Source: Rhodohalobacter sulfatireducens | GTDB taxonomy: Bacteria; Bacteroidota; Rhodothermia; Balneolales; Balneolaceae | Length of the DNA stretch: 38,272 bases | Direction of reading: 5' to 3' | Assembly: GCF_022012475.1 (NCBI RefSeq) | Contig: NZ_JAKLWS010000040.1 | Span: forward strand, 1-38,272 | Shown: piece after piece, positions 4,978 to 14,235 of the stretch | How the letters are laid out: every line of letters starts with the position of its first letter | How positions within the stretch are numbered: position 1 is the first letter of the stretch | Made by a program: the position numbers and the translations under genes | The notes under the pieces: generated by a model | Told to the model about the DNA's origin: nothing | The model's input: only the letters and a program-made list of their open reading frames with translations | Database searches by the model: none

Positions 4978-6111
4978 TTACAGCTTTTTGCTGTACATTC
5001 TGTAACGTTTGTCGAGCTTACCGCCAATTCGTTCTGCAACCCGAACCATCTGAATATTGTTCTCCAGTATCCAGCCAACCTCCGAAGAGTGCACACCTTT
5101 TTCCAATCCGTTTTGAATTGCCTCCCGATGCATCAAAACATCAATTCCTTTTCCCTGGTACTCGGGAAGAACTCCCATCAAAGCAGTTCGGACTTTATCG
5201 ATCTTACGCTTATTCCAGAGGAGTTTAAATATGCCAAATGGGAAAAGACGGCCATTCATATCCCTGAAAATCTGGTTGTAATCAGGGAGTGCAATTGAAA
5301 ATCCAACCGGTTGCCCGTTAATCTCGGCGATATGTGCAAAGTCATCATCTACAATCGTTTTTAGGTCTGAAGCCAATGCATCAAACTCTTCTTTCGAAAG
5401 TGGAATAAATCCCCAATTATTTTTCCAGGCTTCGTTAAAAATATCGCGGATGATGTGAACCTCATCCTTGATTTTCCGCATATTTATTTTTCGAATCTCA
5501 AGATCGGGCAGGCGTTTTTTAACAATCTTAACGGCTCGTTCCGCCCGCTCGCGATCTACACTATTTTGTGTAACGAGATATGTGAGAAGGTCCATCTCCT
5601 TTTCGTAGCCGGCTTTTTTGGCAAGTTTATCGTAATACGGCTTGTGATAAGGCATCAGGATAGATGGGTATTTCTCAAAACCATCCACCAGTATACCAAT
5701 CTCATCCATCATACTTGGATTTGAGGGTCCCAGCACATCTTCCATCCCTTTCTCTCTCAACCAATCTTCCGCAACTTTAAATAGAAGGTTCGCAGTGTTA
5801 TGATTATCAATCGATTCAAAAAAACCAAAAAAACCGGTCTTTGCCTTGTGAAATTCGTTATATCGGTGATCGATAATTGCAGCAATTCGGCCTGCTGTTT
5901 CCCCGTTTAACTTTGCCAGGAATAGGGCAATTTCTGCATTATTATAGAATGGATTTTTCTTCTCGTTGATGAGCTTTTTCTGCTCCATTAGAAGGGGAGC
6001 TACCCAATACTTGTTGTGAGAGTAATGCCTGTAAGGAAACTCTATGAACTCCTTACGATCCTTCTCAGTCGTAATAATGGAAATTTCGTGTGTATTGGGA
6101 TTCTCTTTCAC
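4978..6111 (-). CDS. GNAT-like acyltransferase coupled to serine palmitoyltransferase
   Basis: This 377-residue cytoplasmic protein has an acyl-CoA N-acyltransferase (GNAT) fold. The N-terminal half has family-like stretches such as YWVAPLLMEQKKLI, GRIAAIIDHRYNEF and GFFGFFESID. The C-terminal half has an acyl-CoA-binding-like segment ALMGVLPEYQGKGID (V-L-P-x-Y-Q-G-K-G, near 315). It matches a Bacteroidota family usually annotated only as N-acetyltransferase. The GTG start at 6111 directly abuts the TAA of the SPT gene (6112-6114), so the two are almost certainly co-translated. Position and fold make an N-acyltransferase step in sphingolipid synthesis (ceramide synthase-like, as for the acyltransferase-fold bCerS described in Caulobacter) an attractive inference. 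The true substrate is not shown by sequence. Confidence 0.8.
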   Translation of the reverse strand: MKENPNTHEISIITTEKDRKEFIEFPYRHYSHNKYWVAPLLMEQKKLINEKKNPFYNNAEIALFLAKLNGETAGRIAAIIDHRYNEFHKAKTGFFGFFESIDNHNTANLLFKVAEDWLREKGMEDVLGPSNPSMMDEIGILVDGFEKYPSILMPYHKPYYDKLAKKAGYEKEMDLLTYLVTQNSVDRERAERAVKIVKKRLPDLEIRKINMRKIKDEVHIIRDIFNEAWKNNWGFIPLSKEEFDALASDLKTIVDDDFAHIAEINGQPVGFSIALPDYNQIFRDMNGRLFPFGIFKLLWNKRKIDKVRTALMGVLPEYQGKGIDVLMHREAIQNGLEKGVHSSEVGWILENNIQMVRVAERIGGKLDKRYRMYSKKL

Positions 6112-7359
6112 TTACGAATTAATATCAATCAGCGATTGACCGTTTTCGTCAATAATTCCGTGCTTAAGACCCACTTTCCTGAATGCTTCAAGAATTTTAT
6201 CGAGATGCTCATCGGTATGGGTTGCCATATAACTTGTACGAACAAGGGCTTGTCCGCTAGGTACTGCCGGAGGCACTACGGCATTCACATAGACACCGGC
6301 CTCAAACAGATCTTTCCAAAACTCAAAACAACTGATCATATCGCCTATAACAACCGGAATAATCGGTGTTTGACTGGTCCAAACGTTAAAACCAAGCGCT
6401 TTGAGCTCTTTCCTCATATAGTTAGAAATTTCCTCAAGCCTCTCTAACCTCCATGGTTCTTGCTGGAGTATTTCGAGTGATTTTAAAACAGTAGCTACGT
6501 TTGCCGGGGGCATACTGGCACTGAATATATGAGCGGGTGATTTATGACGGATATATTCGATAACTGCCTTATCACCAACCAAAAATCCACCAAGAGAAGC
6601 AAATGATTTGGAAAAAGTTCCACTAATAAGTTCGACTTTGTCCATCAATCCAAAAACAGATGCCGATCCTCTTCCACCTTCTCCTACTACGCCTATGGCA
6701 TGGGCATCATCAATATAAAGGCCCGCATCAAATTCATCAGCTAATTGGACGAGTTCCGGAATCTTGGCTAACGTACCCGACATTGAAAATACTCCATCGG
6801 TAACAATAATTTTTCCAACAGATGGATCTTCTCTTTCAAGGAGAGTTCGCAAATGATCCATATCGTTATGGCGATATCGCACCGTCTTAGCATTCGAAAC
6901 CTGGGTTCCTACTACGATGCATGCATGGTTATCTTTATCAGAAAAAATGACATCATTACGATCGGCAATAGTTGAAATAGACCCTTCATTTGTTTGATAC
7001 CCCGTACTAAAAAGTACACAAGAATCTTTCCGCATAAATTCAGCAAGCTTCTCTTCAAGCTCAAGATGCAGATCTAAGGTGCCATTCAAATATCGAGAAC
7101 CTGTACAGCCGGTTCCATATACTTCAATTACTTTTTGAGCAGCTTCAATTGTTCGGGGATCGTTGGTAAGGCCGAGATAATTGTTTGAACCGGCCATGAT
7201 AACATCTCTTCCTTCGATGTTAACTGTAGTACCATCTGTGGCTTGTAACGGCTTAAAATATGGATACAGACCACTTTCTTTAATCTCCTCGGCCATAGTA
7301 AAATCATAGGCCTTCTTAAAAACACTGCTATAGGAGGTTTCGGCTTTGATATCGCCCAT
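6112..7359 (-). CDS. spt: Serine palmitoyltransferase (alpha-oxoamine synthase family)
   Basis: This PLP enzyme condenses L-serine with a long-chain acyl-CoA to 3-ketosphinganine, the committed step of sphingolipid synthesis; bacterial SPTs are soluble homodimers. At 415 residues it has all the family marks: the PLP-stacking histidine in DKDNHACI (H145), the cofactor Asp and His in YIDDAHAIG (D217, H220) and the Schiff-base lysine in GTFSKSFASLGGF (K251). The GTGCTGSRYLNGT segment (82-94) is also typical of the family. Other members (AONS/BioF, KBL, ALAS) share the fold. SPT is favoured by resemblance to Bacteroidota SPTs and by the neighbouring acyltransferase and glycosyltransferases. ATG at 7359 is the start. 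A 70-bp gap follows the upstream glycosyltransferase gene. Confidence 0.85.
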   Translation of the reverse strand: MGDIKAETSYSSVFKKAYDFTMAEEIKESGLYPYFKPLQATDGTTVNIEGRDVIMAGSNNYLGLTNDPRTIEAAQKVIEVYGTGCTGSRYLNGTLDLHLELEEKLAEFMRKDSCVLFSTGYQTNEGSISTIADRNDVIFSDKDNHACIVVGTQVSNAKTVRYRHNDMDHLRTLLEREDPSVGKIIVTDGVFSMSGTLAKIPELVQLADEFDAGLYIDDAHAIGVVGEGGRGSASVFGLMDKVELISGTFSKSFASLGGFLVGDKAVIEYIRHKSPAHIFSASMPPANVATVLKSLEILQQEPWRLERLEEISNYMRKELKALGFNVWTSQTPIIPVVIGDMISCFEFWKDLFEAGVYVNAVVPPAVPSGQALVRTSYMATHTDEHLDKILEAFRKVGLKHGIIDENGQSLIDINS

Positions 7360-7429
7360 TATAAATTCGTTGCATTTTTATTAAACAGGTAAATATACCG
7401 AGTATTCAGCTTCAATCAAATTTCAAGAT

Positions 7430-8554
7430 TTAAGCTGATTCTCTGTTCACTACACGTTCCAGAAATGAGATATACTGATCGACAACTGTATCCCAGCTAT
7501 AATACTTCTGAACGTATTCCTTCGACTTTCTCGACAACTCATCGAGTTCATGTCTTAAAACATAATCAATTTTTGCGGCAAAAAGGTCCGGATTTCCATG
7601 AGGAATTTTATAACCATTCACACCTTCCTCTATTACATCTTTTATTCCCTCCAGGTCAGATGCTATAGCCGGCACACCTGCTCTGTTTGCTTCCAATAAA
7701 ACAATTCCAAAGCCTTCCATATCTCCCTCAACCGGAATATTCGGCATTATAAAAAGATCAGCCGCCGCATAACAAGCGTTTAAAATTTCGTCCGGTTGCT
7801 TCCCTACAATAACAATTTTTTCCTTCTTATCAGACTTTTCTTTTGCTTTTTGAATATTTTCTCTTTCGGGTCCGTCTCCAACAATTAGATATACGGTGTC
7901 TGTTTTAATTTTATCAAAGGTTTTATCTACAAACCACCTGTAGCCTTTTCTTTTTACCTGCCTCCCTACGGATAACAAAAGCTTTCTTCCTGATAAGTCT
8001 AGTTTAAACTGTTCCTCAATGAGTTTCCTGGCTTTATTCTTTTCAGGTAACATATCCATCACCTTTGTATCAAACCCATTGGGTAAGGCTACTCCTTTTT
8101 CGGGCTCCATACCACGCTCAATACAAGCATTCCTCGTTGCAGATGAGACCGATATTACACCATCGAGCTGTTTAAATAAAAAAGAGAGATACCGTTGATA
8201 GGTAGCAGAGGGAAATGTAACATCTTGACCATGATTGATGGTTACAAAAGGCACTTTTGTTTTATTCAAAATAAATGGCAAAATCCCGGCTGTAACCATA
8301 GAAGAGAATAGTACTACATCCGGTTTTGTTTTTTCTATTTTTGCTGGAATTCTCCAAACCAAGCTCATCAGGAAAAAAAAGGTTTTAAGCCTGATAAATT
8401 TCCAGGAAGCACGCATAATGATACTTTCAATTTCGATATCTTTGCTCTTTTGGAGAGAATCCACGAGCTGCATACTTACACTTTGCATGCCGCCGATACT
8501 TTTCAGGGGCTTGTTTTTTGGGGGATGCAGATGTGAAATGTAAAGTATTTTCAC
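7430..8554 (-). CDS. GT4-family glycosyltransferase (first of two)
   Basis: This is a 374-residue retaining, nucleotide-sugar-dependent transferase of GT-B fold. The N-terminal acceptor domain begins MKILYISHLHPP. The C-terminal donor domain starts near 190 (LLLSVGRQVKRKGYRWFV) and carries the EX7E motif EGFGIVLLE followed by ANRAGVPAIASD, which is characteristic of GT4. The start is GTG at 8554, 10 bp after the stop of the upstream glycosyltransferase, so the two form an operon with SPT and the acyltransferase. The acceptor is unknown. The context favours a lipid, possibly ceramide, at the cytoplasmic face of the inner membrane, but polysaccharide or other glycolipid roles remain possible. 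Confidence 0.88.
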   Translation of the reverse strand: MKILYISHLHPPKNKPLKSIGGMQSVSMQLVDSLQKSKDIEIESIIMRASWKFIRLKTFFFLMSLVWRIPAKIEKTKPDVVLFSSMVTAGILPFILNKTKVPFVTINHGQDVTFPSATYQRYLSFLFKQLDGVISVSSATRNACIERGMEPEKGVALPNGFDTKVMDMLPEKNKARKLIEEQFKLDLSGRKLLLSVGRQVKRKGYRWFVDKTFDKIKTDTVYLIVGDGPERENIQKAKEKSDKKEKIVIVGKQPDEILNACYAAADLFIMPNIPVEGDMEGFGIVLLEANRAGVPAIASDLEGIKDVIEEGVNGYKIPHGNPDLFAAKIDYVLRHELDELSRKSKEYVQKYYSWDTVVDQYISFLERVVNRESA

Positions 8555-8564
8555 GCTTTTGGCT

Positions 8565-9689
8565 TTAAGTATCTAATACCTCTTTATAGTAATCTAAAAG
8601 TTTACCGTTTATAGAATCCCATCTATAATCTTTAGACTTTTCCAGGGAGGCTTTTGACATTTTATCTCGCAAACTCGCATCAAGAATCAATCTCTCGATT
8701 AAGGTAAAGAATTTATCAGATCTTTCAACCGGAGCTCGGAAGCCATTTTCACCATGATCCACCAAAGATTTGCTTCCGGTTGCATCAGCTACAACCGCCG
8801 GTAAACCACATGCCATCGCTTCCAGGGTTACATTTCCAAATGTTTCCGTATCTGACGGAAAAAAGAAAATATCACTCGAAGCATAGGCCCTGGCAAGATT
8901 TTCTCCTTCAAGAAATCCTGTAAATTCTGCCTTTGGAAGCATCTCCATCATCTCATTACGCGCCGGACCTTCTCCAACTACCATTGCTTTAACAGATGCA
9001 TATTTGTTTTTCAACCTCTGGACTACCGTAGCAAAAAGTTTCAAGTTTTTCTCCCAAACCAGTCTCGAAACAAAACTAATGACGATATCTTCATCTTTAA
9101 ATCCAAGCTTCCGTCTCCATTCCATGTCTCTTTTGCTTGGGTTAAAAAGCTCCCTGTCAATTCCACGTTCCCAAAGTTTCAAATTCGTTTTGATGTTATT
9201 CTTTTTTAAGATTTCCGCCATCGACTCGGAAGGCACATATACCTGCCTGCACTTACCGTAAAACCATTCAAGATAATTCCAAAAAAACGACTCAATTGCA
9301 GAAAGTTTGTAATATTTTAAATAACTCGAAAAATGAGTGTGATAAGACGATACAACGGGTATTCCTTTCTTTTCAGCCCAAAGCAAGGCTTTTATTCCCA
9401 AGATATCAGGTGTGGCAAGATGCAAAAGGTCTGGTTGAAAAATTTCAAGTACATTCTTTGCTTTCTTGGGAAACCATATTGTAAATCGATATTCAGGTCT
9501 TCCGGGCATCTTCATTGAGGGAATCGGAACCAATCTGCCAACATGATCGATGGCCGGGTCTGGTACTGTAGGACCAAAAACAAGAACCTCAACCTCGTTC
9601 TTCTGCAGATAATCAACCAACCTGTTCAGCGTAATGGAAACTCCATCTTTTATATGGTTATAATTACCCGTAAAAATTGCTACTCTCAT
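8565..9689 (-). CDS. GT4-family glycosyltransferase (second of two)
   Basis: This is a GT-B fold glycosyltransferase of about 374 residues. It resembles the alpha-mannosyl/sulfoquinovosyl lipid-glycosyltransferase branch: N-terminus MRVAIFTGNYNHIKDGVS, then SSYHTHFSSYLKYY, WERGIDRELFNP and the EX7E motif ETFGNVTLE followed by AMACGLPAVVAD. I chose ATG at 9689 over the longer reading frame, which would begin at TTG 9713, because the family N-terminus starts exactly at the ATG. It is the promoter-proximal gene of the minus-strand cluster. A 91-bp intergenic region separates it from the divergently transcribed epimerase gene. Donor and acceptor cannot be read from the sequence. Confidence 0.88.
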   Translation of the reverse strand: MRVAIFTGNYNHIKDGVSITLNRLVDYLQKNEVEVLVFGPTVPDPAIDHVGRLVPIPSMKMPGRPEYRFTIWFPKKAKNVLEIFQPDLLHLATPDILGIKALLWAEKKGIPVVSSYHTHFSSYLKYYKLSAIESFFWNYLEWFYGKCRQVYVPSESMAEILKKNNIKTNLKLWERGIDRELFNPSKRDMEWRRKLGFKDEDIVISFVSRLVWEKNLKLFATVVQRLKNKYASVKAMVVGEGPARNEMMEMLPKAEFTGFLEGENLARAYASSDIFFFPSDTETFGNVTLEAMACGLPAVVADATGSKSLVDHGENGFRAPVERSDKFFTLIERLILDASLRDKMSKASLEKSKDYRWDSINGKLLDYYKEVLDT

Positions 9690-9780
9690 GCCGTCAAATC
9701 GTTTCAAATGCAATCGGCATATTTGTATCTTAACCGATGGTTAGCGATTTCTGTTCAAAGAATGTGAATATACGAATTAA

Positions 9781-10755
9781 ATGAATGTATTTATTACCGG
9801 CGCAACCGGTTTTATAGGAAGTCATGTTTTTGATCATTTGTCCGAAAATGATCATGTAAATAACATCAAGTGCCTTGTACGAAATAAGGAAAAATGGTTA
9901 GAAGGTAAGTCTTATCAAAAGATAGATGGAGATCTTCACTCCATTCAAAGTATAGAAAAAGCGCTTGAAGGTGTAGATGTTATAATCCACCTGGCAGCAA
10001 TTGTAAAGGCTCCCACACAAAAAGAGTTTGATCATGCAAATGTTGATGCTACTGAGCATCTTGTACGTCTTGCCAACCGGTCGGGTGTAAAGAAAATGGT
10101 GGTATTATCTTCACTGGGTGCTTCAGGTCCAAGTAATGGCAAACCATTGACAGAAAAAGATCCTATGAAACCGATCAGCATGTATGGTAAATCCAAAAAG
10201 AAGATGGAGGAGATGATCCACAATGTGGCCGATTCAGATCTGTCGGTAACCATTTTAAGGCCTCCGGCGGTTTACGGCCCGCGCGAGGATCAAATCTTTA
10301 CGCTTTTTAAAATGATGAGTTATGGATTGGCACCAATGATTGGTGAAGGAGATAAACCAGAGATCTCTATCATGTATGTGAAGGATTTAGTCCAGGCTAT
10401 TGTCAAAGCAATGATGCAGGAAGAAAATGGGGTTCATACCTATTTTGTTTCCGGTAAAAATACCACAAGTCTGAAGAAGGTTAATGATATCGTTCAGACA
10501 GTTCTTGGGAAAAAAAGTCTTCCTATTCACTTCAAACCAACATGGATAAAAAAAATTGCAGGAGTTGTTGAAACAACATCAACATTTTTTGGTTCATACC
10601 CCGTTATAAACAGGGAAAAAGCAGACGAATTCGTTCTGGAATGGATTTGCGATCACCAAAAAGCAAAAAAAGAGCTCAACTATCAGCCGCAATATACACT
10701 GGAAGAAGGCATTTCCAGGACATTACGATGGTACAAAAAACATAACTGGCTATGA
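9781..10755 (+). CDS. NAD(P)-dependent epimerase/reductase, extended SDR
   Basis: This is a 324-residue extended short-chain dehydrogenase/reductase. The Rossmann dinucleotide motif is GATGFIG (7-13), the acidic sugar-epimerase-like segment is DVIIHLAAIV, catalytic serines lie in VVLSSLGASG, and the catalytic pair is Y135/K139 in MYGKSKK. LRPPAVYGPRE is typical of the NDP-sugar epimerase/dehydratase and 3-beta-HSD group. It is divergent from the SPT/glycosyltransferase cluster across 91 bp. Because the 3-ketosphinganine reductase CerR of Caulobacter belongs to this broad family, a ketosphinganine-reducing role is a reasonable inference. An NDP-sugar epimerase feeding the glycosyltransferases is the main alternative. 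Its TGA overlaps the ATG of the next gene (ATGA). Confidence 0.85.
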   Translation: MNVFITGATGFIGSHVFDHLSENDHVNNIKCLVRNKEKWLEGKSYQKIDGDLHSIQSIEKALEGVDVIIHLAAIVKAPTQKEFDHANVDATEHLVRLANRSGVKKMVVLSSLGASGPSNGKPLTEKDPMKPISMYGKSKKKMEEMIHNVADSDLSVTILRPPAVYGPREDQIFTLFKMMSYGLAPMIGEGDKPEISIMYVKDLVQAIVKAMMQEENGVHTYFVSGKNTTSLKKVNDIVQTVLGKKSLPIHFKPTWIKKIAGVVETTSTFFGSYPVINREKADEFVLEWICDHQKAKKELNYQPQYTLEEGISRTLRWYKKHNWL

Positions 10756-12308
10756 TATTTATGAACAAAATTTTTAAATCATTTCTAACATTTATTATCC
10801 TATTCTGCTTTACTTCAGGCAGTTACATACATGCTCAGCTGGTTAAAGATCTTGGTCGGCAAATTGAGATCCCGAATATTGTAAATCTTCAAAGTTCAGA
10901 GACACATCTTTACGCTCTCTCCGAAAGTGAAGGCCTCGTCGTATTTCGTGCATACAGTGATTCTTTACAATGGCTCTACTCCTCTACAGGCATGCAACAA
11001 CGCGGTCATATTATTGAGAGCGACATTCGTTTTGCTTACCTCTATGGAAATACTCGCCGCCTTACAGTCGTTGAACCGACCTCTGTTCTGGGCGTATATT
11101 CTTCAACTGTTCTGCCTGATGTACCCCGTGCTGTAGTAAGAATGGGCAATGATCTCTATATCGCACTTGGAAACTCCGGTTTGGGTCGAATTAGTCTCGA
11201 AACGCCGGAAAGCGTTGACTCAGGTGTAGAAATTATCCGTGATAACCAAACAATTGACTTGACATCCGATAACGGGCAGACTGTTTTTGTCCTCCGAGGG
11301 GATAATTCGATCGGTATCTATACCATTCGTGAAGGGAACGCAACGCTGAGCGAAGAGGTAAATATTGATCAAACACTGACTAAACTATTCCTGATAAAAG
11401 GAGAATTAATGGGAAGTGATAATGACGGGAATATATACCTTGTTAATTCTGATGGTAATACAGAACAAATTGCAAACCTGGCAAATCCTGTTGATAAAAT
11501 CTCAATATGGAACGACCGAACAATCATTAGAACCGTTACGGCAGATATTTGGATTGATGACAGCAATGGAAATTTCAACCAGTGGAAACCCGGAAATCGT
11601 TCTGGCAATTATTTGACTGTAACAGAAGACACTTTCTGGATTTCTGAGTACAATAAGATTTTTCCGATCATAGAGCGGGCCGACCAGCAAGAGATGGATA
11701 GTGATACACCCGTTTCTGATACTTTTGCACTCAGTGAAATTGAGGATGTAGTACTGCCATTTCCTCGTCCGTTGCTTTTACCGATTGAGTTCGAAGGAGA
11801 TGTCAGCAGTGACAATATTTCACTCAGCTACATTGCCTCATTTAATAATGCACAAATACGTGGAAATTCATTTTACTGGCAACCTACAGCCACTCAATCC
11901 GGACGGCATACGGTTACGATTACAGCATCCCTGGCAGATGGGAAAACAGACAGCACCCAGTTCGTCATCAATCTTCGTCCATTTAATTCACCCCCTCGAT
12001 TTACCCCCTCCCGACCTATCTCAATACCTGTAGGCGAGGAGTTTGAATTGGGCATTTCGGCTATTGACCCGGACGGCATCAACCAATCATTAATTCGATA
12101 TTTGGGTGTAGATATGCCTGACGGTGCACAAATAAATGAAACAACCGGCCGGTTCAGATGGAATCCTGATGAAAGACAAGTTGGCGAACATACTTTTAGA
12201 GTTATAGCTACAGATCAATACGGTGCTGCAGCTTCGCAGGATTACACGATAAATGTGGTTGAACTTTCAGCACAAACAGGTGAAGAAGAAGACCTTTTTG
12301 AACAGTGA
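10752..12308 (+). CDS. Exported beta-propeller-like protein with two Ig/cadherin-like domains
   Basis: No named family is certain for this 518-residue protein. It starts with a secretion signal (hydrophobic SFLTFIILFCFTSGSYIHAQ), using the ATG at 10752 or the one at 10761. Residues about 35-330 are a run of short beta-rich repeats (for example LYIALGNSGLGRISLE and ELMGSDNDGNIYLVNSDG) that look like a WD/PQQ-type propeller. Residues about 340-407 and 408-505 look like two Ig/cadherin-like (He_PIG, dystroglycan-type) domains: FYWQPTATQSGRHTVTITA, and DPDG then GRFRWNPDERQVGEHTFRV. No type IX C-terminal sorting signal is evident. It overlaps the epimerase upstream by 4 bp and mutY downstream by 4 bp, so it is translated within one operon. 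A periplasmic or outer-surface binding or assembly role is a guess. Confidence 0.8.
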   Translation: MIFMNKIFKSFLTFIILFCFTSGSYIHAQLVKDLGRQIEIPNIVNLQSSETHLYALSESEGLVVFRAYSDSLQWLYSSTGMQQRGHIIESDIRFAYLYGNTRRLTVVEPTSVLGVYSSTVLPDVPRAVVRMGNDLYIALGNSGLGRISLETPESVDSGVEIIRDNQTIDLTSDNGQTVFVLRGDNSIGIYTIREGNATLSEEVNIDQTLTKLFLIKGELMGSDNDGNIYLVNSDGNTEQIANLANPVDKISIWNDRTIIRTVTADIWIDDSNGNFNQWKPGNRSGNYLTVTEDTFWISEYNKIFPIIERADQQEMDSDTPVSDTFALSEIEDVVLPFPRPLLLPIEFEGDVSSDNISLSYIASFNNAQIRGNSFYWQPTATQSGRHTVTITASLADGKTDSTQFVINLRPFNSPPRFTPSRPISIPVGEEFELGISAIDPDGINQSLIRYLGVDMPDGAQINETTGRFRWNPDERQVGEHTFRVIATDQYGAAASQDYTINVVELSAQTGEEEDLFEQ

Positions 12309-13399
12309 GCAGTTTTTCAGATAAGATTGTAGCGTGGTACCAGGAAAATAAAAGAGATCTGCCCTGGCGAAAAACCGACGATCCCTATAAAATCTGGATT
12401 TCGGAAATAATGCTCCAGCAAACACGGGTTGATACAGTTATTCCCTACTATGAACGATTCCTTGAGCGATTTCCAACCGTATATGATCTTGCAGAAGCCG
12501 ATCAACAGGATGTGTTAAAGAGTTGGGAAGGGCTTGGATACTACAGCCGCGGACGAAATCTGCATCATGCTTCCAAAACTGTTGTGGATAAGTTCGATGG
12601 TAATGTGCCCTCTGTATGGGATGAAATTACCTCTTTGAAAGGGATTGGACCCTACACGGCATCAGCGCTTCTTAGTATTGCTTTTCAAAAAAAATATGCT
12701 GTGGTTGATGGAAATGTAATTCGCGTTCTCTCGCGCTATTATGGAATTCAGGATGATATTCGAAAGTCCACAACAAAAAACAGGATACAAGAACTTACGG
12801 ATGACCTGATTCCAGAAGATAAACCCGGTGATTTCAACCAGGCCGTCATGGAGCTTGGAGCAACAGTTTGCACCCCTCAAAACCCTAATTGTAATGATTG
12901 CCCCCTTTTTGTTGATTGCATTGCTGCAAAAAGAGCTCAAACTGATGAAATACCATATAAATCACCCGCGAAAAAAATACCGCATCATCAAATTGCTGTT
13001 GGGTTGATTCTCAATCAAAAAAATGAATTACTTATCGCTCTACGCCCCAATGAGAGCATGCTCGGTGGACTTTGGGAATTCCCGGGCGGTAAGCAGGAAG
13101 AGGATGAAACATTACAAGAAGCAACAGCTCGCGAGTTGAGTGAAGAACTTGGTGTTGAGGTTGAAGTCTTTTCAAAGTTTCGGGATCTGAGGCACGCTTA
13201 CTCTCATTTTAAAATTACGATGCACGCATTTTGGTGCCGAATAAAAAATGGAGATCCTAAACCTAAATCAAGCCAGAAGATAAAGTGGGTCTCACTGGAT
13301 GAAATTGATGAATTTCCTTTTCCAAAAGCCAACAAAACTCTCATTAAAGGCTTGAAGAATCTCGATAAAGACGACCTATCTCATTACCTGGATAACTAA
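12305..13399 (+). CDS. mutY: Adenine DNA glycosylase MutY with a complete Nudix box
   Basis: MutY removes adenine mispaired with 8-oxoguanine. The 364-residue protein has the catalytic Glu in SEIMLQQT (E34), the HhH motif LKGIGPYTA (111-119) followed by the catalytic Asp in VVDGNVIRV (D135), and the [4Fe-4S] ligands C189, C196, C199 and C205. The C-terminal domain begins near 228 and contains the MutY 8-oxoG-reading loop HAYSH (297-301). Unusually it also has a perfect Nudix signature GX5EX7REUXEEXGU at 262-284 (GGKQEED onward, then RELSEELGV), which ordinary MutY C-domains have lost. The GTG start at 12305 overlaps the TGA of the previous gene. Its TAA overlaps the ATG of the next gene. Confidence 0.95.
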   Translation: MSSFSDKIVAWYQENKRDLPWRKTDDPYKIWISEIMLQQTRVDTVIPYYERFLERFPTVYDLAEADQQDVLKSWEGLGYYSRGRNLHHASKTVVDKFDGNVPSVWDEITSLKGIGPYTASALLSIAFQKKYAVVDGNVIRVLSRYYGIQDDIRKSTTKNRIQELTDDLIPEDKPGDFNQAVMELGATVCTPQNPNCNDCPLFVDCIAAKRAQTDEIPYKSPAKKIPHHQIAVGLILNQKNELLIALRPNESMLGGLWEFPGGKQEEDETLQEATARELSEELGVEVEVFSKFRDLRHAYSHFKITMHAFWCRIKNGDPKPKSSQKIKWVSLDEIDEFPFPKANKTLIKGLKNLDKDDLSHYLDN

Positions 13400-14235
13400 T
13401 GCTATCAAAGCCGTTACGCAAACGTACTCCTCAGGGACTTTGGGATTTGAAACCCTATCTGGACGAAATAAATGACCGGGTTGAAACTGCTGATTATATC
13501 TCTGAAGATCCTGTTCAATTTCTTCACGCATTCCATCAAAAAAAAGACCGGGAAATTGCAGGATTCCTGGCTGCCACGATGGCCTGGGGACGACGGGATA
13601 TTGTCATTGCAAAAGTGGAAGATTTGTTAAGTCGTATGCAAAACGATCCGTATCGTTTTGTAATGAGTTACAATCAAGCTGAATTTAGCAGGCTTCGGTC
13701 TTTTAAACACCGCACATTTAAACCGATCGATATTCACGGTATCCTTCTCAGCCTGAAAAATATCTATTCCAGTTATGATGATTTTGAATCATTTTGGATA
13801 AAATGTCATGAGCAGGCAAAAGCTGAAAACAGACCTTTGATGGCTCTTTTTCATCATAACTTTTTTAATGGTTGCGATGATCTCGCCAACCGAACACGAA
13901 AACATGTCTCCAATCCCGAGAAAGGGAGTACCTGTAAACGTTTGTTCATGTTCCTGCGCTGGATGATTCGTAAAGATAGCCCTGTGGACCTTGGTATATG
14001 GGATTTTATTCCTGCTTCGGATCTGTTGATTCCCTACGATGTTCATGTAGCCCGGCAGGCAAAAAAGTATGGATTAGTATCACGAAAAAGCAACGACTGG
14101 AAAACGGTTAACCAGCTTACGGAAACATTGAAATTACTAAATCCCGATGATCCTGCTCGCTATGATTACTCACTTTTTGGAATGGGTGCACTAGATTATT
14201 CACTTCCGAAAAAGTTTATCCTGAACAAAGTTTAA
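13399..14235 (+). CDS. TIGR02757 (DUF2400) family protein
   Basis: This 278-residue cytoplasmic protein belongs to the conserved family TIGR02757/DUF2400, widespread in Bacteroidota and of unknown biochemical function. Family-like segments are REIAGFLAATMAWGRRD, CKRLFMFLRWMIRKD, SPVDLGIW, LLIPYDVHVARQA and a C-terminal ARYDYSLFGMGALD. The fold is thought to be related to helix-hairpin-helix glycosylases. The start ATG at 13399 overlaps the mutY stop (TAATG), so it is translationally coupled to a DNA-repair glycosylase, in keeping with a nucleic-acid role. The stop overlaps by 4 bp the stop of the convergent membrane-protein gene. Confidence 0.88.
   Translation: MLSKPLRKRTPQGLWDLKPYLDEINDRVETADYISEDPVQFLHAFHQKKDREIAGFLAATMAWGRRDIVIAKVEDLLSRMQNDPYRFVMSYNQAEFSRLRSFKHRTFKPIDIHGILLSLKNIYSSYDDFESFWIKCHEQAKAENRPLMALFHHNFFNGCDDLANRTRKHVSNPEKGSTCKRLFMFLRWMIRKDSPVDLGIWDFIPASDLLIPYDVHVARQAKKYGLVSRKSNDWKTVNQLTETLKLLNPDDPARYDYSLFGMGALDYSLPKKFILNKV

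Follow-up and report, generated by a model that had tools for sequence, protein, structure and literature searches.

The five genes and their predicted products

The window, i.e., the whole stretch of DNA that was analysed (38,272 nucleotides; contig NZ_JAKLWS010000040.1 of Rhodohalobacter sulfatireducens), holds at positions 4978–10755 five genes of a predicted sphingolipid pathway. Four are located on the minus strand: a GNAT-like gene of the bCerS/YghO family of tandem-GNAT N-acyltransferases, a predicted bacterial ceramide synthase (4978–6111, GTG start); the gene of a serine palmitoyltransferase (SPT)-type α-oxoamine synthase (6112–7359); and two genes of family 4 glycosyltransferases (GT4), GTb (7430–8554), proposed to add a second sugar, and GTa (8565–9713, TTG start; alternative in-frame ATG at 9689), proposed to put the first sugar on the lipid. 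The fifth gene (9781–10755, plus strand) is divergent and encodes an extended short-chain dehydrogenase/reductase (SDR), the best candidate for a ceramide or 3-ketosphinganine reductase of the CerR type. The stop codon of SPT abuts the start of the GNAT-like gene with zero spacing (TCG TAA GTG); GTa and GTb are 10 bp apart, GTb and SPT 70 bp. An earlier reading made from the letters alone (the sequence-only reading) had given these genes and positions, the TAA-GTG junction and the 10 bp spacing, and all were confirmed from the open reading frames; its divergent gap of 91 bp is obtained with the ATG at 9689, and with the TTG start of GTa the gap is 67 bp. The stretch between the divergent genes (9714–9780) is presumed to bear promoters; the consensus promoter scan run on this question gave 22 matches vs. 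a shuffled mean of 16.1 (standard deviation 4.3), i.e., no promoter evidence. Pfam domains above cut-off were Aminotran_1_2 (SPT), Acetyltransf_1 (GNAT-like protein, residues 221–363 only), Glycos_transf_1 (both glycosyltransferases) and Epimerase (SDR).

Alignment of the SPT showed the pyridoxal phosphate lysine K251, H145 and D217, all three claimed by the sequence-only reading, as well as H220 and the carboxylate-binding R374 in place. Its best solved relatives, the Sphingobacterium-type SPT entries, scored 413 bits (E about 1e-122), as against 218 bits for the cysteate enzyme 28eh. Position 281 is Ala in the window SPT and in 10 other aligned SPT-type sequences, and Lys in 3 cysteate-type enzymes; according to the available excerpt of PMC9304779, Ala281 marks SPT and Lys281 marks cysteate fatty acyltransferase.

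With an E. coli epimerase as query, the window SDR was found first in its genome (1.7e-24; next match 4e-7); Y135 and K139 of its YxxxK motif are invariant across 16 sequences. Of 14 SPT-holding loci read from the phylum's other classes (L108–L120 without L117, plus L126 and L127), 10 have a homolog placed divergently next to SPT; at L127 it is placed downstream. The divergent SDR is thus predicted to be the reductase, as the best CerR candidate of the genome; CerR of Caulobacter is described as periplasmic in the part of PMC11087976 available. HpnA or a sugar epimerase was considered and rejected (HpnA 130 bits vs. cut-off 367.65), synteny and best match favouring CerR. The SDR gene overlaps by 4 bases the gene of an Ig-domain protein, which is followed by mutY and a DUF2400 gene (window 10752–14235); all 26 loci read from the window's order keep the SDR-Ig neighbourhood, 24 of them have mutY and 21 have DUF2400, some of the stretches ending early.

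The N-acyltransferase family beside SPT

The GNAT-like gene had been regarded as a member of an uncharacterised family and as the most interesting part of the locus. This description was wrong: judged by sequence matches, the gene belongs to the published bCerS/YghO (CC_1154) family, because the E. coli YghO query finds it first in the genome (4.1e-74; next best 2.3e-33; 36–37% identity over about 97–98%) and YghO and Caulobacter CC_1154 are listed together as acyl-CoA N-acyltransferase of ceramide synthesis in the available excerpt of PMC9386255; CC_1154 is named cerS in that of PMC11324152. An apparently unknown gene thereby becomes a testable ceramide synthase in the window's order.

The occurrence of the two genes was compared in a set of 296 genomes of the phylum, which were counted as SPT-positive at a match of E ≤ 1e-100 (225 SPT-positive, 71 SPT-negative); the cut for a strong GNAT match was drawn after seeing the gap between about 7e-84 and 7e-56. 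Strong matches were present in 219 of the 225 SPT-positive and 3 of the 71 SPT-negative genomes (Fisher p about 9e-56, kinship ignored), the opposite of a gene found mostly in genomes without SPT, which the sequence-only reading had named as counting against it. Outside the window's class both genes were found in 145 genomes, GNAT only in 3, SPT only in 6 and neither in 68 (p about 6e-46). An acetyltransferase unrelated to sphingolipids was rejected on the 219/225 vs. 3/71 distribution. The six SPT-positive genomes without a strong match comprise two with none (G024, G217), one with two pieces beside SPT (G294), one with a diverged copy beside SPT (G033) and two with diverged copies lying away from SPT (G230, G238); a strong match without SPT was found in G067, G079 and G291.

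Conservation of the SPT/GNAT adjacency, a check proposed by the sequence-only reading, was observed as well, at a level beyond chance. Among the matches listed, 116 genomes had a position for both genes; in 88 of these the GNAT-like gene lies 3' of SPT, co-oriented and no more than 600 bp away. The count is 57 of 58 for the window's class and 31 of 58 outside it. The available excerpt of PMC11334938 already describes clusters of Spt, bCerS and CerR from many phyla and states that sphingolipid-producing Bacteroidota do not have these three genes near one another, whereas in the present set SPT-GNAT adjacency was common across the phylum save in a few families (31/58 outside the class). In three genomes of two families (G164, G128, G208) SPT and the GNAT-like protein are fused as one reading frame of 820, 795 and 830 aa (L111 8851–11313; L118 7703–10090; L229 6091–8583); of the positions checked, the 7 of SPT and, with a single exception (one Ala for Gly), the 15 of the GNAT are kept in the fusions.

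Beyond the phylum set, an SPT (>150 bits) was present in the fetched stretch of 52, and an SDR match (E ≤ 1e-6) in that of 47, of 80 GNAT loci from many phyla, many of the contigs being short. Plasmid records matching the GNAT numbered 45, of which 44 matched over at least 80% of the length; all five records of the plasmid search that were examined (Sphingomonas, Rubrobacter, Streptomyces, Aureispira and E. coli) contain, within about 9 kb, both an SDR and a gene of the SPT type. The E. coli locus consists of an SPT gene above the NCBIfam cut-off, an acyl carrier protein (ACP) gene, an epimerase, a ligase and yghO (L042 4522–10119, a ceramide-type cluster); of 5426 complete E. coli genomes, 4501 had a DNA match to yghO.

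In a tree built from 39 GNAT rows, 17 rows make up an SPT-linked set (fork 87/90), 12 a paralog clade (100/99) and 8 a diverged clade (100/99). The label SPT-linked is mistaken for L207, a stretch without SPT, and loose for L105 (6 kb apart) and L125 (elsewhere in the genome). L207, a Cloacimonadota contig, holds two tandem bCerS-family genes (6836–9064), and SPT was not found in its stretch. The window genome (G000) holds a second, distant member of the family on contig C49 (L228 8794–9939), placed in the paralog clade. The AlphaFold2 model of the window protein is a full tandem GNAT (pLDDT 93.3, pTM 0.90); fold search with it gave 7q3a as best hit (Z 25.2, root-mean-square deviation (rmsd) 3.4, 305 residues) and, aligned over the length of the protein, N-myristoyltransferase 1nmt with Z 16.3 (rmsd 4.6, 285 residues), a shared fold that shows no function. 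By sequence no close solved relative of the protein was found.

The glycosyltransferase pair and the product of the locus

Among 41 other genomes of the window's order in the phylum set, 26 loci were read. The gene order SDR (divergent), GTa, GT, SPT, GNAT was the same in 26 of 26; the second glycosyltransferase is GTb in 22, whereas the remaining 4 loci, which all belong to genus g5, have in its place another GT4 that was picked up only as a weak match to GTa. In both GTa and GTb, Glycos_transf_1 and Glyco_transf_4 domains were above cut-off. Over the class as a whole GTb was found in 79 of 90 genomes (E ≤ 1e-40), 7 of the misses lying inside the order and all in g5. Of the 42 class genomes outside the order that hold both GTa and GTb, 40 have the two side by side and at a distance from SPT; 18 such loci, picked for being adjacent, were mapped. 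Because the two genes are widespread in the class outside the order and lie there side by side away from SPT, they are read as a class-wide two-gene unit that, within the window's order, has its place in the SPT operon. Among the 80 GNAT loci from many phyla, GTa or GTb was found only at the 5 closest. For GTa no solved relative was found at E ≤ 1e-15.

The cluster shares SPT, a tandem-GNAT N-acyltransferase and an epimerase-type reductase with the systems of Caulobacter crescentus (spt CC_1162, cerR CC_1164, bcerS CC_1154) and E. coli (yghO). It differs from them in that SPT and bCerS are directly adjacent, two GT4 genes stand inside the cluster, and the five genes, whose gaps are 0 to 70 bp, have no gene of an ACP or acyl-ACP synthetase between them. 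With the SPT loci read from the phylum's other classes it has the divergent SDR, SPT and GNAT in common, and neither GTa nor GTb was found there. The cluster looks like the known three-enzyme ceramide pathway with a glycosyltransferase pair inserted across one order, the GT4 pair being the variation. BF9343_3149 of Bacteroides (α-galactosylceramide) and ZMO1957 of Zymomonas are GT4 enzymes. They share with GTa and GTb the proposed ceramide acceptor and are named as bacterial glycosphingolipid synthases in the available excerpt of PMC10865984.

The gathering in one locus of SPT, a ceramide synthase candidate of acyltransferase fold, a CerR-type reductase and two glycosyltransferases, as put forward by the sequence-only reading, was supported. 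From the kinship of the SPT, bCerS and SDR families, the conserved clustering and the fusions, we infer the activities as follows. From serine and a fatty acyl thioester, SPT would form 3-ketosphinganine by condensation; the GNAT-like bCerS would N-acylate this base, the SDR (CerR) would reduce the ketone, and GTa would then put a first and GTb a second sugar on the ceramide formed, ceramide being the presumed acceptor of both. Acylation before reduction is taken from published Caulobacter work and hinted at by the SPT-bCerS fusions: a fused protein may hand 3-ketosphinganine directly to the acyltransferase, in which case acylation would precede reduction. The preferred reading, given a probability of about two in three, is that (dihydro)ceramide is the product of the locus and probably receives sugars there; its ceramide part is well supported by the gene families and their linkage, glycosylation by GTa and GTb is likely, and bacteria of the window's order probably make sugar-bearing sphingolipids. 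The full pathway to a diglycosyl ceramide claimed by the sequence-only reading was overstated and is an inference, because the glycosyltransferase pair is class-wide and SPT-linked only in the window's order.

Several results weigh against this reading. The window SPT scores under all three curated NCBIfam SPT cut-offs (NF047600 502.6/640, NF047599 386.3/500, NF047603 311.3/670), which are score thresholds for subfamilies and no biochemical feature; because these were missed, the enzyme is classed as SPT-type from its residues and best match, NF047600 still being its best NCBIfam model, ahead by 104 bits. The tie to CC_1154 runs through YghO and the list in the available excerpt of PMC9386255, not through an alignment of CC_1154 itself; the fork uniting the window gene, YghO and the other SPT-linked copies is supported at 87/90 only; and the closest solved folds are acetyltransferases (acetyl-CoA tandem GNATs, Z 25), the N-myristoyltransferases being lower (Z about 16). 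As to the sugars, neither GTa nor GTb was found at 14 SPT loci from the rest of the class or at 13 from other classes (L108–L120), and GTa was present in 90 of 90 class genomes (E ≤ 1e-60); the two enzymes may therefore work on a different lipid.

The last point belongs to the alternative that the locus makes ceramide and that GTa and GTb share the operon only, their acceptor being something else, for instance diacylglycerol or a surface polysaccharide. It agrees with the side-by-side placement of the pair away from SPT in 40 of 42 class genomes and with the three best NCBIfam models of GTa, all glycolipid synthases below cut-off, the closest being named for phosphatidylglycerol and diacylglycerol-type lipid substrates. 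It is rather unlikely in view of the position of GTa and its GT partner, which stand between SDR and SPT at every one of the 26 loci read from the order; also, 127 of 129 phylum-set genomes with GTa (E ≤ 1e-75) are SPT-positive, a count confounded by kinship. Placement in the SPT operon favours a sphingolipid role of the pair without proving it. A cluster for 1-deoxy or other long-chain-base lipids, in place of ordinary membrane ceramide, is improbable: no examined sequence feature favours alanine, and glycosylation would need the C1 hydroxyl, which is absent from 1-deoxy bases. The available excerpts of PMC10056535 and PMC11334938 report that SPT uses alanine, and that 1-deoxyceramides occur, in Bacteroides/Bacteroidota. 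Least probable is a cysteate fatty acyltransferase in place of SPT, with sulfonolipids as products. The first enzyme of that pathway (SulA, CapB) is a homolog, and the phylum includes sulfonolipid producers (PMC9304779, available excerpt); the window enzyme has Ala281 vs. Lys281 and 413 bits to SPT vs. 218 to the cysteate enzyme, and sulfonolipid synthesis at this locus was rejected on Ala281.

With (dihydro)ceramide as the preferred product and probable glycosylation, glycosphingolipids are predicted for the window's order; judged by the titles listed in one literature search, no paper on sphingolipids of this order was evident. The locus is read as a well-conserved ceramide cluster that has a glycosyltransferase pair placed in it across one order; the gene thought most novel is of a known family.

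A diverged clade beside cysteate fatty acyltransferase

The diverged clade (8 tree rows) comprises the SPT-adjacent copy of G033, those of G230 and G238 (SPT-positive) and of G049 and G037 (SPT-negative), those of G057 and G170 beside a cysteate fatty acyltransferase gene, and that of G021, a genome of the same family whose diverged GNAT and fatty acyltransferase genes lie on different contigs. The label cysteate fatty acyltransferase is given by 730 bits to solved 28eh (one copy) and by Lys281 (three copies). In family f26, by our guess perhaps Flavobacteriaceae, 28 of 29 genomes match the diverged gene at 56–100% identity, and none of the 29 is SPT-positive; within a flank of 1.5 kb the fatty acyltransferase gene is placed tail to tail with it in 21 of the 28 and is absent in 7. 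In the genomes of other families examined, no α-oxoamine synthase except SPT was located, by coordinates, beside a GNAT match.

At most, the diverged clade is a candidate for N-acylation in the synthesis of sulfonolipids. No capnine N-acyltransferase is named in the available excerpts of PMC9304779, PMC10191378, PMC9386255, PMC12927429 and PMC11324152. That one tandem-GNAT family N-acylates both ceramides (SPT-linked group) and sulfonolipids (diverged clade) is put somewhat short of even odds; it is weakened because the clade has lost several residues invariant in the SPT-linked group, and all of it, its SPT-adjacent member included, differs from that group at W229, N232, R308 and W347 among others. 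The fusions and the diverged clade offer tests of the sequence of steps by which bacteria build ceramide and of the identity of the enzyme N-acylating capnine. The pairs of diverged GNAT and cysteate fatty acyltransferase genes lie at L121 7931–10367, L122 7808–10889 and in L233–L260.

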